DNA from: Robiginitomaculum sp. | GTDB taxonomy: Bacteria; Pseudomonadota; Alphaproteobacteria; Caulobacterales; Maricaulaceae | NCBI GenBank assembly: GCA_016765135.1 | Contig: JAESQN010000009.1 | Location: 1-52,759 of the forward strand | Length of the DNA: 52,759 nt | Direction of reading: 5' to 3' | Shown: piece by piece, positions 747 through 7,005 of the stretch | Numbering within the stretch: the first letter of the stretch is position 1 | How the letters are laid out: every line of letters starts with the position of its first letter | Translations under genes and position numbers: made by a program | The notes under the pieces: model-generated | The model's input: the letters and a program-made list of their open reading frames with translations, nothing else | Told to the model about the DNA's origin: nothing | Databases searched by the model: none

Positions 747-1919
747 ATGGACGACCAGTTAAAAAAGCAAGCGGCAATTACAGACAGGCCCACGGGTGTA
801 CTGGTTCTGGCCAGTGGTGAGGTGTTTTACGGCCACGGTTGTGGGGCAATTGGCGATGCGCCGGGCGAGGTGTGTTTCAATACGGCAATGACAGGCTATC
901 AAGAAATCCTAACTGACCCGTCCTACGCCCAACAAATCGTTCTGTTCACTTTTCCCCATATCGGGAATACGGGCACCAATGAAGACGACGAAGAAGCGGC
1001 GTGCGGTGCTGCAAGCACGGCGGCTCGCGGCGCAATTTTTAGAGAACACATTACGGCCCCGTCCAACTACCGCTCGCAAGCCCCTCTGGGTGACTGGCTG
1101 GTCGAGCGCGGTATTGTCGGGCTGTCCGGCATTGATACCCGTGCGCTGACATCTCATATCCGCGAGACCGGCATGCCTAGTGGTGTCATTGCCCATAATC
1201 CAGACGGCGAATTTGATATTACCGCCTTGCAAACCAAGGCTCGCAACTGGCCCGGCCTTGTGGATGCGGATTTGGCAAAAACCGTCTCTACGGACGAAAG
1301 GTATAAATGGAACGAAACTGGCTGGCGTTGGGGTGAAGGCTACGGCAAGACTAAAGACGCGGAAAAACATGTGGTGGTGATAGACTACGGGACAAAGCGC
1401 AATATTTTGCGCTGTTTGGCGGATGCGGGGATGCGCAGCACTGTGGTGCCAGCAGGTACGGACGCGGCTGATATTCTGGCCCTTGGCCCGGACGGTGTTG
1501 TCCTGTCCAACGGCCCCGGCGACCCGGCGGCGACAGGCGCATATGCCATTCCGATTGTCAAAGAACTGATCGACAGCGAAGTGCCAATGCTCGGTATATG
1601 TCTGGGTCACCAAATCATGGCTTTGGCCCTTGGTGCCAAGACGCTCAAAATGGCCCAAGGTCATCACGGGGCTAACCACCCGGTCAAGGATTTCGAAACT
1701 GGCAAGGTGGAAATCGTCTCCATGAACCACGGTTTTGCAGTAGATAGCGACACCCTGCCTGACACCGTGGTCGAAACGCATCGGTCGTTATTTGACGGCT
1801 CCAATTGCGGCATCCGCCTCAAAGACCGCCCGGTATTTTCCGTCCAACATCACCCCGAAGCCAGCCCCGGCCCACGGGACAGTTTCTATTTGTTCGAGAG
1901 GTTCAGGGCTGCGTTGTAG
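747..1919 (+). CDS. carA: Carbamoyl-phosphate synthase small subunit
   Basis: The glutaminase subunit of carbamoyl-phosphate synthetase. It releases ammonia from glutamine and channels it to the large subunit CarB, supplying carbamoyl phosphate for pyrimidines and arginine in the cytoplasm. The N-terminal half is the CPSase small-chain domain ([36 protein letters not shown]). The C-terminal half is a class I glutamine amidotransferase with the nucleophile Cys in GICLGHQ (about residue 284) and the His/Glu pair in [11 protein letters not shown] chose the ATG at 747 over the in-frame ATG at 732 because GAGGCGG lies at a proper distance from it. carB is not in this window. The last 17 bases overlap the convergent avidin-like gene. 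Confidence 0.97.
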
Positions 1920-2337
1920 CTTCCTGCGCCCGCCTGAACTCGCTGGCGCCGGTGCGGATTGATCCCCAAATATCGTCTGCCTCCTTGGTGTCCTCAATGT
2001 CTTTGGTCAAATGCCAAAGCGTGCGGATATAGGGTGTGTTTTGCTTGTCCAAAACCAATTGCCCGACCCATGCGGTCATAGAGCCGTAGCCTTTAAAATT
2101 AACGCTAAACGTGATCTGGTCATCTTGTACCAGGCCGACCAGCGGAAAGCTTTGGCTTTTATCTGGTTGGCCCACATTGGTGCGGTAGGTACCGTTGACT
2201 TTTCCGTCTGTCACGGACAGGACGGCCACAGACCCCATATCATTATACCAAGACCCGTTAAAGTCTACGGGTGTTTTCCCATAAGAATATGTGCTCATCA
2301 AAAGAAACAACGTACTGATAATAAAAAATCTAAACAC
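1903..2337 (-). CDS. Secreted avidin-family (bradavidin-like) biotin-binding protein
   Basis: A 144-aa protein: signal peptide at residues 1-20 (hydrophobic, ending STYSYG), then one avidin/streptavidin beta-barrel. Aligned by eye to streptavidin, WYNDMGS (30-36) matches WYNQLGS, keeping the biotin contacts Asn and Ser. GTYRTNVG (49-56) keeps the Tyr, with Thr for Ser45. SMTAWVGQ keeps the Ser88, Thr90 and Trp92 equivalents. TLWHL keeps Trp108 and Leu110, and Trp124 matches Trp120. The segment FSVNF (77-81) has Phe where streptavidin has Trp79, as recalled for bradavidin. The Asp128 equivalent appears to be Ser132, so affinity may be reduced. The start is GTG at 2337, with AGGA seven bases upstream inside the end of the antiporter gene; the 8-base overlap suggests translational coupling. 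The family call is strong; actual biotin binding is inferred. Confidence 0.85.
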
Positions 2338-3862
2338 CCATAAATCCTAACACCACGTACATAAGCACCGTACCCGCGCCTGCGATGAGTGCGTAGGGGA
2401 TTTGGGTTCTTACATGGTCTATGTGGTCGTTGGCCGTGGCCATGGAGGCGATGATGGTGGTGTCCGATGTGGGCGAACAATGGTCGCCGAACACGCCGCC
2501 GCCCAGAGCCGCCGCGATGGCCATATGGGGGTTAACGCCCATATTTTGCGCCAAGGGTACGGCAACCGCAATCATGATGGCGAATGTGCCCCAGCTTGTG
2601 CCCGTACTAAACCCGATAATGCCTGCGATAACAAAGACAATGGCGGGCACCAGGGCAGGCGTAATAAACCCGCTGGCCACGTCGGCCATGTAAAGCCCGG
2701 TGCCAAGGTCGCGGCACAAAGCGTTGAGCGCGAAAGCCAATACGGCCAGCAGGGCGACATTCATCATACCGGCCATAGCTTTGAGGGACAGCTCAACCAT
2801 TTCGGTGATCTTCATAATGCCTTGGGCGCGGTAGAGAACCATAGCCGTGAGAATGGCAAAGCTGGCTGAATACAAAACGGCGGCCGAGCCTGAACCACTG
2901 GAAAGCGCACTCCAATACAGCTTTATGCCAGCTATGGGTTCGCCACCGGTTTGCCTGGCAATTTCAGCGGCCTTGTTTACGGCCTTGCTCCACCCCGTAT
3001 AGATCAGGAAGGTCGGCATCAAAAACACCATGGTGGCGATGGGGATATACATGTTAAAAGCACGGTGGGGGATGCTGTCCTTGGCTTCCAGCATGGAGAC
3101 ACTGTCGTCCATCATGGGAATGGCTCCGTCGCGTAATATCTTGCCAGTCTTTGCGGCGCGGACTTCCGCCTTTTTCATATCGCCCCAATCCTTGCCGCTC
3201 CAAATCACGAAAAAGACCAACAATATCGTCAGCATGGGGTAAAAATTATAGGCAATGGATTTAACCAAAACCGGAAATGGCTCGCTATAGCCGACCACAA
3301 ACAGAAGCCCCATAATATAAGCGCCCCAGGCATTAAACGGCATGAGAATATTGGTCGGCGCAGAGGTACTATCGGCAATATAAGCCAATTTCTCACGCGG
3401 GATTTTCAGCTTGTCAAAGATAGGGCGGTACAGAGTGCCGACCGTAAACAGCGAAATGTTACTCTCTATAAACAGCGCTATCCCTGTGAGTGCTGCAATA
3501 CTCTCGACAATACGGCGATTGCCCTTGTCGGCTTGTTTGTTACCGACCTTGGTCAGGAACCGCAATATCCCCGCAACAAAACCTTCCACCCCGCCGGAGC
3601 GTTGTACCAAAGCAATCAGCGGCCCGATAATAATGGTAAAAATAATCAGCCGTGCATTGCCAGTATCGGTCAACACGGTGACAAAGGCGTTCAGCGTCTC
3701 TAGCGTGCCCGTAAGCGGATGCCCGCCCGACAGGATCAAATAGCCAAACCAGATACCAACGGCGAGTGCCAAAAACACTTGCCGTGTCCAAAGCGCCAAA
3801 CCAATAGCTATTAAAGGCGGCAAGACCGACCAAAACCCCATTGTCTGCGCAACACCGTCCAT
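2330..3862 (-). CDS. Na+/H+ antiporter NhaC family protein
   Basis: A 510-aa integral membrane protein with about 11-12 hydrophobic segments, of the NhaC-type ion transporter group. Typical features are FIESNISLFTVGTLYRPIFDKLKIPREKLAYIADS in the first half (positions about 3390-3480) and the conserved FSTGTSWGTFAIM plus GDHCSPTSDTTIIAS in the second. The likely role is exchange of sodium (or an organic acid plus sodium) for protons across the inner membrane; the substrate cannot be decided, because the family also includes malate/lactate antiporters. The start at 3862 has AGGGG six bases upstream. The stop overlaps the avidin-like gene, so the two are probably co-transcribed, which is an odd pairing. 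Confidence 0.9.
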   Translation of the reverse strand: MDGVAQTMGFWSVLPPLIAIGLALWTRQVFLALAVGIWFGYLILSGGHPLTGTLETLNAFVTVLTDTGNARLIIFTIIIGPLIALVQRSGGVEGFVAGILRFLTKVGNKQADKGNRRIVESIAALTGIALFIESNISLFTVGTLYRPIFDKLKIPREKLAYIADSTSAPTNILMPFNAWGAYIMGLLFVVGYSEPFPVLVKSIAYNFYPMLTILLVFFVIWSGKDWGDMKKAEVRAAKTGKILRDGAIPMMDDSVSMLEAKDSIPHRAFNMYIPIATMVFLMPTFLIYTGWSKAVNKAAEIARQTGGEPIAGIKLYWSALSSGSGSAAVLYSASFAILTAMVLYRAQGIMKITEMVELSLKAMAGMMNVALLAVLAFALNALCRDLGTGLYMADVASGFITPALVPAIVFVIAGIIGFSTGTSWGTFAIMIAVAVPLAQNMGVNPHMAIAAALGGGVFGDHCSPTSDTTIIASMATANDHIDHVRTQIPYALIAGAGTVLMYVVLGFMGV

Positions 3863-3938
3863 AATAACCCCTAGCTTGGTTTACCCATATACATGGCGCG
3901 AAATCAAAGAGGCCGCAATACAAAATTGGAGAAGTTTG

Positions 3939-3972
3939 AGAGAACTGCAAGTGTTAGAGAACTGCAAGTGTT
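3939..3972. repeat. 17-bp tandem duplication
   Basis: The 17-base unit agagaactgcaagtgtt is present twice head to tail (3939-3955 and 3956-3972). It lies 77-110 bases upstream of the antiporter start codon, so it would be in its promoter or leader region. It could be a slippage duplication; no function is visible. Confidence 0.8.
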
Positions 3973-4081
3973 AATGTCCACCTCGACAGGTGTGTAGGTG
4001 CATGCGGCGAAATTTGCGGCGTTTGAAAAGGCCCGGTCAACCGTCTCGTCAAAGGTCAGTCCTGGGCTTGGGCGAGCTTAA

Positions 4082-5179
4082 TTAGAACCCGCGACCTTTC
4101 AAAAATCCTGCAATTTCTTGCATGGCCTGGTTTGCTTCGGGAAGGATATCGTCGAATATCTGCCAGACATGGGGCATGTGTGACCAGGTTTGTAATTTAA
4201 CATCCGAGCCTGCCCTGCGAGCTTTGACGGTATAGCGCTTGGCATCATCATAGAAAATTTCACTATTACTGACATGGATCAGGGTTGGTGGCAGATTTGC
4301 AAGATCACCGAAAATCGGTGATATAATGGGAGCGGACGGAATTATGCTCGTTTCTTTCCATGTTCCCCATAACAACAGAGTTTTGGGTATATTGACCACC
4401 GCCCCGACCAGTGGGCGCAACATATGATCGGTTTTGATATTGGCCTTGATGCTTGGCGCGGAATATGTGCCGTCAACAACCGGAGAAAGCGGCACCGCTG
4501 CGTCTGCTGCACGCAAGCCTTCGTCTCTGGCCCATTGGATAAGTGACAGGGTCAGATTACCCCCGGCGCTATCGCCCATCACGGCAAGCTTCTTGACTGA
4601 AAACGGCCCGTCCGGCCCGTTTTCCAATATCCATTTATAGGCCGTGCGGCAATCTTCAATCCCTTCCATGCGCTTGTTTTCCGGCATGAGGCGGTAATTT
4701 ATAACGCAGACGCTGGCCCCGGTCAGTTCGGCCAGTTTAGAGGTGATCGGGCGGTGGGACAAATGCGAGCCAACCGTAAAGGCGCCGCCGTGGATGTAGA
4801 GAATGCGTTTGTCCGGGTCGGATTTTTTGCCGCGTTTTTTAGATGTCACCCATTCGCCAGTGATCTCTCCCCCACCATTAGAATTGCCGGTAGGAATGGC
4901 CAACGGTGTGAATTTGGACGGGAAGTCCCGCGCCAACCCGCCTTCGTCAAAGCGTTTGCGCTTGGCGGCTATGGGCTCACCGCCCTTATGACCCTGGGCC
5001 GGTTTTTCGAAGTTCTCGTACAGATAGGCGTTCATCTCTTTCAAGCTGTCAGTGTCGGGGTCAATCTCAAATGTGACAGGAATATCCTCATCATATTTGG
5101 AAAGGTTCTCCCCTTTCAACATTTTGGTCACGGCAATAAGCGCGATAACAGGCACGGCAATGGGGAGCAAATAGAGCAT
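4082..5179 (-). CDS. Alpha/beta hydrolase, hormone-sensitive-lipase type, membrane-anchored
   Basis: A 365-aa protein with an N-terminal hydrophobic helix (residues 2-21) followed by an alpha/beta-hydrolase fold of the HSL (family IV) esterase group. The oxyanion-hole motif HGGAF is at 130-134 and the nucleophile motif GDSAGG at 202-207 (Ser204). The C-terminal His is probably in SHMPHVW, and the acid in the segment before it. Such enzymes cleave short- to medium-chain acyl esters; the natural substrate is unknown. AGGA lies seven bases before the start. It is divergent from the Hsp70 gene at 5302, with a 122-base intergenic region that must hold both promoters. Confidence 0.9.
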   Translation of the reverse strand: MLYLLPIAVPVIALIAVTKMLKGENLSKYDEDIPVTFEIDPDTDSLKEMNAYLYENFEKPAQGHKGGEPIAAKRKRFDEGGLARDFPSKFTPLAIPTGNSNGGGEITGEWVTSKKRGKKSDPDKRILYIHGGAFTVGSHLSHRPITSKLAELTGASVCVINYRLMPENKRMEGIEDCRTAYKWILENGPDGPFSVKKLAVMGDSAGGNLTLSLIQWARDEGLRAADAAVPLSPVVDGTYSAPSIKANIKTDHMLRPLVGAVVNIPKTLLLWGTWKETSIIPSAPIISPIFGDLANLPPTLIHVSNSEIFYDDAKRYTVKARRAGSDVKLQTWSHMPHVWQIFDDILPEANQAMQEIAGFLKGRGF

Positions 5180-5301
5180 GGAATATCCTTGTTTTCCCGG
5201 ACTATAGGCTCACAGCATAAAACAGGTCAATCACAACTTCTATTCACACTTGAATGCCAAGTATAGATTTGCGATAGAGGTGTTATCAAAAGGGAAAATT
5301 T

Positions 5302-7005
5302 ATGAGCATTGTTGGTATTGATCTTGGGACGACAAATTCGCTTATCTCGGTGTTTACCGACGACGGCCCCGAGCTTATTCCTAACGCACTTGGAGATTTT
5401 TTGACCCCGTCCGCAGTCGGCTTGTCGGAAAAAGGACAGGTATTGGTGGGGCAGGCGGCCAAAGATCGGCTGGTGACCCACCCGGCTCTGACCCAGGCAA
5501 GGTTCAAACGTTATATGGGCACCAATTGGGGCCAAAAACTTGGCCGTAAACATTACCGGGCCGAAGACTTGTCGGCGCTTGTATTGGGCAGTTTAAAAGC
5601 CGACGCCGAAAACCATCTTGGCCATCCGGTCGAGCGGGCTATCATTTCCGTACCCGCCTATTTCAATGATACCCAGCGCAAAGCCACAATGGCGGCCGGA
5701 CAGATCGCCGGGCTGAAGGTCGAGCGGCTGATCAATGAGCCGACGGCGGCGGCTCTGGCATATGGCCTCAATGATAAAGACGGTGAAAGCACGTTTTTGG
5801 TGGTTGATCTGGGCGGAGGGACATTTGATGTCTCAATTCTTGAAATGTTCGACGGGGTTATGGAGGTGCGAGCCTCAGCCGGGGATGCATTTTTGGGCGG
5901 TGAGGATTTCACTGATGAAGTCGCGAAATATTTAGCAGGAAAGTTAGATACAACACTTGAAAAATTTTCCGCCAAGAAAGCGGCCATGTTGCGCGATTTG
6001 GCCGACCAGGCCAAAGCCAAATTATCAAGCGAGCATGAGGTGTCGTTCAAATTTATCGATGATAAATCTACCGAGCAAACCCTGAGTTTGACCCGAAATA
6101 AACTTGAGGAAATATCGGAAGGTTTGCTCAAGAAACTGCGCCACCCGATCCAGCGCGCCGTTATGGACGCCGGACTGCGGGCGGAAAATATCGACCAGGT
6201 CGTGCTGGTCGGCGGCGCGACGCGTATGCCGGTGGTACGATCTTTGATCGCCCGCATGTTCAAGACATTTCCCGTACATAATCTCAATCCCGATCATGTC
6301 ATTGCAATGGGGGCGGCGGTTCAGGCCGGGTTGGTTGACCGCCATAAGGCGCTGGACGACATTGTCATGACCGATGTGTGCCCGTTTACTTTGGGTACGG
6401 ACGTCGCCATAGAGATCGCCAAAGGGCAATATGAGGACGGGCATTTTCAGCCGGTTATTGAGCGTAATACGGTCATTCCGGTATCAAGGGCGGTGAGAAA
6501 TTCTACCATTCACAAAGGTCAGACCCAGCTCAATTTACGGATTTTTCAAGGTGAAGCCCCGCGTGTTACCAACAATGTTTATCTGGGCCAGGTCAATGTC
6601 CCTATCCCGAAAAACATGAAAGACTATGAGGAAGTGGATATCCGCTTTACCTATGATGTTTCGGGGGTTTTGGAGGTTTTGGTCAAGGTTTTATCCACGG
6701 AAAAAACCAGTCGTCTTGTCATTGAAGGCAATCCGGGAGCTTTGTCCAAATCCGAGATTGATGCGCGGTTTAAGGTATTGGATAAATTAAAAATCCACCC
6801 ACGCGAGGAAACCGTCAATGCTGCGTTCACAGCCCGCCTCGACAAGGCTTACGAAAACCATTTGGGCGATGCGCGCAAAGACATCCAGTATTTAATAGGT
6901 GTATTCGAAGCCGCCCTGGCCCGGCAAAACAAACACGAAATCAAAGAGGCCCGCGACGAGATAGAGCCGCACCTAAAAACTTATGAAGACCGCAGTATAT
7001 TTTAA
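5302..7005 (+). CDS. hscC: Hsp70 family chaperone, HscC-type
   Basis: A 567-aa protein, close in length to E. coli HscC (about 556 aa) and much shorter than DnaK. The nucleotide-binding domain covers roughly residues 1-370, with GIDLGTTNS (5-13), the phosphate-2 motif DLGGGTFDVS and the adenosine motif VGGATRMP. The substrate-binding domain follows (TLGTDVAIE, then NTxIPVSR), and the helical lid is short. HscC is a specialised cytoplasmic Hsp70 served by dedicated J-proteins (DjlB/DjlC in E. coli). Here a J-like gene follows at once, with TAA and ATG sharing one base, which supports the assignment. The RBS AGGGA precedes the start. Confidence 0.9.
   Translation: MSIVGIDLGTTNSLISVFTDDGPELIPNALGDFLTPSAVGLSEKGQVLVGQAAKDRLVTHPALTQARFKRYMGTNWGQKLGRKHYRAEDLSALVLGSLKADAENHLGHPVERAIISVPAYFNDTQRKATMAAGQIAGLKVERLINEPTAAALAYGLNDKDGESTFLVVDLGGGTFDVSILEMFDGVMEVRASAGDAFLGGEDFTDEVAKYLAGKLDTTLEKFSAKKAAMLRDLADQAKAKLSSEHEVSFKFIDDKSTEQTLSLTRNKLEEISEGLLKKLRHPIQRAVMDAGLRAENIDQVVLVGGATRMPVVRSLIARMFKTFPVHNLNPDHVIAMGAAVQAGLVDRHKALDDIVMTDVCPFTLGTDVAIEIAKGQYEDGHFQPVIERNTVIPVSRAVRNSTIHKGQTQLNLRIFQGEAPRVTNNVYLGQVNVPIPKNMKDYEEVDIRFTYDVSGVLEVLVKVLSTEKTSRLVIEGNPGALSKSEIDARFKVLDKLKIHPREETVNAAFTARLDKAYENHLGDARKDIQYLIGVFEAALARQNKHEIKEARDEIEPHLKTYEDRSIF

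Follow-up and report, generated by a model that had tools for sequence, protein, structure and literature searches.

The window analysed here, the whole stretch of 52,759 nucleotides from Robiginitomaculum sp., carries a short avidin-family gene that begins within the 3′ end of a transporter gene on the same strand (Table 1). The avidin open reading frame matched the Pfam Avidin profile (PF01382) at 81 bits (E 1e-22, gathering cut-off 24) and is the one avidin copy found in this genome. Its GTG start (2337-2335) does lie inside the transporter gene, preceded by its own ribosome-binding-site candidate, as the sequence-only reading had described, and the overlap points to a single mRNA, the avidin probably being produced from the message that starts with the transporter gene. 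At its other end, the avidin gene is overlapped by 17 nt by a convergent open reading frame (732-1919), which we take to be carA, while the transporter gene is flanked by the avidin gene and an alpha/beta hydrolase gene (PF07859). Upstream of the transporter gene, two exact head-to-tail copies of a 17-base stretch, AGAGAACTGCAAGTGTT, occupy positions 3939-3972. A promoter and terminator scan of positions 1800-5400 gave counts near chance (7 vs 3.8 and 6 vs 4.1 expected), and Rfam returned nothing in the window at gathering score. A BioR-type operator upstream of the transporter was considered and rejected, given that a BioR-like box (at most one mismatch, both strands) was absent from the 400 nt upstream of 22/22 transporter genes.

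Table 1. Features of the avidin–transporter locus, in window coordinates.
Feature	Position	Strand	Basis
Avidin-family gene, 144 aa, GTG start	1903..2337	(-)	PF01382 profile match, AlphaFold barrel, Foldseek avidins
Probable signal peptide, residues 1-20, no lipobox	2278..2337	(-)	By-eye reading of sequence; lipobox pattern scan
Mature avidin domain, cysteine-free; predicted pocket N32 S36 Y51 T53 Q57 F81 S86 T88 W90 W108 W124 S132	1906..2277	(-)	Model and alignment
Gene for a 510-aa transporter of PF03553 (Na_H_antiporter); modelled structure resembles carriers of the ion-transporter superfamily	2330..3862	(-)	Pfam, NCBIfam, model
Avidin GTG start/transporter stop overlap, 8 nt, GTGTTTAG	2330..2337	(-)	Sequence; RTGNNTAR pattern
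AGGA ribosome-binding-site candidate, 7 nt before GTG	2345..2348	(-)	Sequence

An AlphaFold2 model of the avidin (30 aligned relatives, pLDDT 91.6) showed eight strands forming a barrel, and a Foldseek search of the PDB ranked streptavidin, avidin, xenavidin and zebavidin highest (across the 50 matches listed, TMq was 0.71-0.82). Both the barrel and the Pfam placement thus agree with the earlier assignment to the avidin family. The label "bradavidin-like" is not supported, as bradavidin (BLR5658) matched at E 2e-5 to 3e-5 in a PDB sequence search, behind the vertebrate avidins (xenavidin 6e-10, zebavidin 7e-9 and chicken avidin 2e-8; best 60 of 161 matches). No relative was found in viral contigs, PHROGs gave no match for the avidin, and the best plasmid match was a Rhizobium gallicum record at 34% identity. 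The dN/dS of the gene was 0.14 and 0.11 against two relatives (dS was not computable for three others tried), which, together with conservation of its clade in 41/137 genomes of the family, argues that the reading frame is not a chance one.

Avidins were found in 6/385 genomes sampled across the class (the window's own among them), in 40/398 across the order (35 of these 40 from the window's family), and in 51/137 of the family, such that the earlier description of bacterial avidins as rare is apt for the class but not for this family. Within the latter, 41 genomes carry a member of the window protein's clade and 10 a different avidin, bearing in mind that a genome without a match may merely be incomplete. 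In a tree of 60 avidins, a single branch set the clade apart from the rest (SH-aLRT 85, with long-branch warnings); L025 and L046, both truncated, and L051, which is partial, were not included. Its loci include Robiginitomaculum, Hellea, Litorimonas and one Pseudomonadales-labelled metagenome bin. In that bin, which belongs to another class, the clade avidin (L068:5892-6348) lies behind an alpha/beta-hydrolase-like gene, a case of either transfer or misbinning.

Judging from the signal sequence, the avidin would be exported. The sequence-only reading called it secreted, and the window's protein has a probable signal peptide and no lipobox. A pattern scan of 39 readable clade relatives (two truncated rows left out; one row without a lipobox masked by N) found a strict lipobox in 16, a loose one in 7 and none in 16, so that in some relatives "secreted" may mean membrane-anchored. 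Lipoprotein anchoring as a general rule for the clade was rejected, with the strict pattern in only 16/39.

The association with the transporter recurs in relatives. Counting one locus per clade genome, a same-strand transporter lies upstream of the avidin in 31/41 genomes, directly in 23 (in one of these, G029, the junction itself consists of masked N positions) and with one gene between in 8, and the RTGNNTAR overlap pattern occurs at 25/32 transporter ends compared. Seven of the ends are followed by an esterase or lipoprotein-like gene, and six of these show the pattern. The intervening gene is lipoprotein-like in two genomes and a PF00135-type carboxylesterase in five, plus a sixth (G064), where a separate comparison placed the transporter 1.4 kb upstream of the avidin on the same strand, beyond the stretch compared at that locus. 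In G019, an esterase gene sits upstream of the avidin, followed by the contig end. Elsewhere, an opposite-strand reading frame separates the avidin from a nearby transporter (G048, G050), a contig edge falls at the avidin locus (G030, G046), or the transporter is not near the avidin (G004, G045, G047, G051, G112). Among named species, Hellea balneolensis and Litorimonas cladophorae carry the pair and Robiginitomaculum antarcticum (G112) has the avidin without the transporter; in the last (L060:5491-6342), the avidin GTG overlaps by 4 nt the stop codon of an rbfA-like gene rather than that of a transporter.

The type-B carboxylesterases that separate transporter and avidin at L072:4643-5938, L073:1403-2713, L078:4652-5920 and L108:3337-4737, in two genera, have a GHSAGG-type motif and a signal or lipoprotein-like start (PF00135 comes from a Pfam scan of two esterases, the others being recognised by similarity), and a carboxylesterase is possibly a third part of the system in some species. 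A small lipoprotein-like gene occupies the same place at L053:5204-5920 and L076:5284-5922, also in two genera; its product had no Pfam match at E ≤ 0.01. Two genomes, G067 (bioB and bioD present) and G034 (bioB not over cut-off), have the transporter beside the same neighbours, presumably including a dnaJ-like gene, without the avidin.

With the transporter clade defined as at least 53% identity to the window's transporter, both this clade and the avidin clade were confined to eight genera (63/137 family genomes); none turned up outside these genera among 249 genomes sampled from the order, where the next-best transporters had 39% and 43% identity. The two clades occur together in 37/41 avidin genomes. 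The avidin occurs without the transporter clade in four of the 41 (three of them at least 90% complete) and the transporter without a detected avidin in 12 genomes, 8 of which also lack bioB (the transporter list counts two fragments at contig ends, in G012 and G116). When only genomes with at least 90% completeness were considered, the eight genera supplied 36, of which 24 have both, three the avidin only, seven the transporter only and two neither, and the association was not significant in this set (p 0.58).

The partner gene had been read as an NhaC-type antiporter, which stands at the Pfam level (PF03553, 143 bits vs a gathering cut-off of 23) and fails at the level of NCBIfam, where NhaC (TIGR00931; 61 vs 370), Tet(35) (149 vs 750) and ArcD (55 vs 650) all scored below cut-off. 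NhaC, MleN and Tet(35) share PF03553, and MleN was also among the best structural matches: a model of the transporter (pLDDT 76.5) matched VcINDY, MleN, YdaH and TRAP SiaQM/IseQM by Foldseek, with 24 matches at E ≤ 0.001 and TMq of just 0.29-0.57 (0.50-0.55 for SiaQM/IseQM-type entries, from this pLDDT 76.5 model). The first Na+/H+ antiporter listed was NhaP, with a probability of 0.35 and a TMq of 0.14, and a PDB sequence search gave no match. Given the sub-threshold TIGR00931 score and a model like ion-transporter-superfamily carriers, we do not consider the transporter strictly NhaC. Several of its structural matches carry carboxylates or other small anions, and its model appears to resemble those of TRAP (SiaQM, IseQM) and DASS/INDY carriers. 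TRAP transporters use an extracytoplasmic binding protein, of DctP type, whereas here the partner would be an avidin; no DctP/TAXI-type domain was found in the six neighbour proteins scanned (five loci and the window). A second PF03553-type carrier is encoded elsewhere in the window's genome (G000:C22:52085-53515; 37% identical).

The window's avidin retains eight of the biotin contacts listed for the family (N32, S36, Y51, S86, T88, W90, W108 and W124) and departs from the full set at four places, with F81 for Trp79, S132 for Asp128, T53 for Ser45 and Q57 for Asn49 (streptavidin numbers are those we take to apply at these positions). Alignment bore out the earlier residue list, which lacked T53 and Q57, and the PDB-search alignments support the placement of the two central changes, F81 facing a Trp of avidin-related protein, xenavidin and zebavidin, and S132 facing Asn or Asp. 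Across the 42 clade members (the 41 family genomes and the Pseudomonadales-labelled bin), the Trp79 position is Phe in 42/42, Asp128 has given way to Ser in 29 members and to Ala in 13, and the Ser45 position is Thr in 40/41. All 41 readable members keep the residues equivalent to streptavidin N23, S27 and Y43, and 42/42 keep those equivalent to S88, T90, W92, W108 and W120. At V47 the residue is V, L or I, whereas the loop position of N49 is variable (Q 20, N 8, E 7, others 6, of 41). Overall, variation at pocket positions was 0.33 bits vs 1.16 elsewhere, i.e., the pocket is conserved far above average.

In 21 other avidins of the same alignment, the Trp79 place is Trp in 17 and Phe in 4, while Asp128 is Asp in 15 and Ser in 5 of the 20 readable there; none of the 21 combines Phe79 with Ser or Ala at 128. 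The aligned sequences therefore indicate that the pair, flagged as unusual in the sequence-only reading, is real, fixed (as Phe with Ser or Ala) and confined to the clade in the sampled set. Other avidins of the same family (L011, L012, L015; L045-L050; L014) have different pockets, with either Phe at the Tyr contact and Phe at the cross-subunit Trp, or Asn at Ser45 and Ser at Asp128 with Trp79 kept.

One of the three pocket tryptophans of the avidin family is donated across the tetramer, and rhizavidin-type dimers lack the Trp120 equivalent. The window's avidin keeps it, and, like bradavidin and rhizavidin, is alphaproteobacterial. It shares with chicken avidin, xenavidin, zebavidin and streptavidin the predicted fold, the eight strands, the carbonyl triad, the Ser/Thr contacts and the three tryptophans, and differs from them where Phe replaces Trp79, Ser or Ala replaces Asp128 (avidin has Asn there) and Thr replaces Ser45, and in being encoded with a carrier. 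In experiments cited in the available text of PMC4888747, D128A in streptavidin costs 4.4 kcal/mol, loss of Ser45 4.3 and both 10.1, and residues 45 and 128 are described there as cooperative in biotin binding. If Ser and Ala act alike, the D128A cost would suggest binding that is tight but reversible. With the Asp lost and the Thr retaining a hydroxyl, the pocket is expected to fit biotin yet let it go, and on sequence grounds it is probably weaker. Since the Asp128 position is occupied by Asn even in avidin, this set lowers the case for a femtomolar binder and not that for family membership.

The biotin synthesis gene bioB (65/137 family genomes: 64 over cut-off and one large fragment, in G091) is absent from 36/41 avidin-clade genomes vs 36/96 others (Fisher 3e-8), or from 23/27 vs 18/71 among genomes at least 90% complete. 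The five avidin-clade genomes with bioB are the window's own, where its neighbour is selO, the contig stops close by and bioD had no match, and G032, G046, G063 and G074; 18 well-assembled genomes without bioB also lack a clade avidin. The avidin-clade genome G072 contains two adjacent bioB-like fragments (C3:348782-349181, in L110), as if bioB were decaying, and was counted as lacking the gene. As a second marker, bioD (TIGR00347, E ≤ 1e-10) was detected in 24/137 genomes and is absent from many bioB-bearing genera; bioB and bioD co-occur in 1/41 avidin-clade genomes and 23/96 others. BioY, BioMNY and YigM are biotin importers, the function proposed below for the present system, and BioY is missing in 135/137 family genomes (present in only 2). 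According to the available text of PMC12662954, a study of algal bacteria, the vitamins that a Litorimonas strain is predicted to synthesise are limited to B1, B5 and B9.

The association with bioB is confounded by ancestry. Stratified by genus, it gave p 0.10 (0.054 when completeness was 90% or more); a Fisher test within the eight genera, uncorrected for ancestry, gave 0.047 (0.026); and independent pairs gave a median p of 0.375. A Pagel test of avidin vs bioB loss gave p 0.016 on 60 genomes and 0.52 on a 30-genome lineage, which the rpoB tree separates from the other genomes by a branch supported at 100. That tree holds 60 hand-chosen genomes of the 105 in which rpoB was found, omitting most genomes less than 85% complete and many from bioB-rich genera, as well as g2 and g3 (one genome each, of the eight genera), which had no rpoB match. 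We regard the link between the avidin and bioB loss as suggestive, with modest tree-aware support.

We tentatively favour, at somewhat below even confidence, a role in which the avidin reversibly captures biotin, or a related compound, that the co-encoded carrier then takes up, with ligand, affinity, contact and transport direction as we infer them. The avidin barrel would be exported and encoded on the transcript of the transporter gene; its pocket, keeping the putative ureido-carbonyl triad (N32, S36, Y51), the S86/T88 contacts and three tryptophans while losing the Asp expected to grip a ureido NH and with Trp79 and Ser45 changed, would still bind biotin or a close relative such as dethiobiotin, reversibly. 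The avidin would then act as extracytoplasmic capture protein and the carrier import the captured carboxylate, with the exported carboxylesterase encoded in the same operon in some relatives freeing ligand from esters or conjugates. Such a working principle would be TRAP-like, a carrier of the same superfamily being fed by a binding protein. Capture and import fits a releasable binder encoded with a carrier from a carboxylate-transporting superfamily, both in one lineage (37/41), and is favoured by the gene order, shared distribution, conserved pocket, frequent absence of bioB and near-absence of BioY, carrier model, cost of D128A in streptavidin and short list of vitamins predicted for Litorimonas. 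It is weakened by the bioB of the window's genome and four other clade genomes, the confounding of the bioB link by ancestry, and the 18 well-assembled bioB-less genomes without this avidin; by the 12 transporter genomes without detected avidin and the lack of significant pairing in 36 well-assembled genomes; by the avidins without transporter (4/41), the overlap with an rbfA-like gene in G112 and the missing BioR-like box; and by the unconserved Asn49 contact and the low-confidence transporter model. It is a more doubtful proposition that the whole constitutes a new nutrient importer, namely an ion-transporter-superfamily carrier with a weakened avidin as its binding protein and, in some species, an exported esterase, by which biotin-requiring marine bacteria would obtain biotin or one of its vitamers.

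A less probable alternative is that the pocket has shifted to a non-biotin ligand, such as a hydrophobic carboxylate or ester-derived metabolite, which the esterase would make, the avidin carry and the transporter move in or out. Three positions have changed together (F81 and S/A132 in 42/42, T53 in 40/41) and the Asn49 loop varies, the cooperativity of residues 45 and 128 in biotin binding (PMC4888747, available text) is in keeping with such a shift, and a PF00135-type carboxylesterase lies between the two genes in six genomes, while in a seventh it adjoins the avidin gene where the contig stops. However, the unchanged carbonyl triad, Ser/Thr and tryptophan contacts argue for a biotin-like shape, and the esterase was found in only 7/41.

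Denial of biotin to competitors or grazers by a classic secreted avidin, with the transporter an ordinary ion or acid antiporter that shares its operon, appears unlikely. It is the usual proposal for avidins, bacterial ones included, in the available text of PMC8033661; algal samples, from which Litorimonas and Hellea have been reported (PMC12662954, available text), are a crowded habitat; and the genomes with a transporter and no detected avidin suit it. Yet a denial agent should retain the tightest pocket, whereas none of the 42 members compared has kept the key Asp; the 36/41 genomes without bioB would have their own supply bound too; and the operon overlap is conserved across genera. We consider it improbable that the avidin is a periplasmic biotin buffer or store independent of the transporter: the probably weakened pocket, the signal sequence and the lipobox of some relatives would suit this role, but the conserved coupling to the transporter would be left unexplained. 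That the protein is a decayed avidin with a structural role or no binding role, as loss of the Asp128 equivalent might suggest, is very improbable given its dN/dS values and a pocket much more conserved than the remainder.

A survey of bacterial avidins recognised eleven clades and included gene-neighbourhood analysis (PMC8033661); a term search of its main text found no mention of antiporter, transporter, uptake, lipoprotein, Hyphomon-, Robiginitomaculum, Hellea, Litorimonas or Caulobacter-. In titles and abstracts from our literature searches (avidin with antiporter or operon, bacterial avidins/bradavidin, biotin uptake), the avidin-transporter pairing was not recognised, and its novelty is judged from these searches alone.

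The finding concerns a residue, Asp128, whose loss in the laboratory weakens biotin binding (PMC4888747, available text) and which in nature has been lost, with the loss fixed, in an operon with a carrier. That makes its role testable in named strains, Robiginitomaculum antarcticum with the avidin alone and Hellea balneolensis and Litorimonas cladophorae with the pair, and a naturally reversible avidin might be on offer. Should the importer reading be true, no earlier bacterial avidin would, to our knowledge, share such a part in acquisition, and in these bacteria the protein may help the cell to collect a biotin-like nutrient rather than to poison its rivals.
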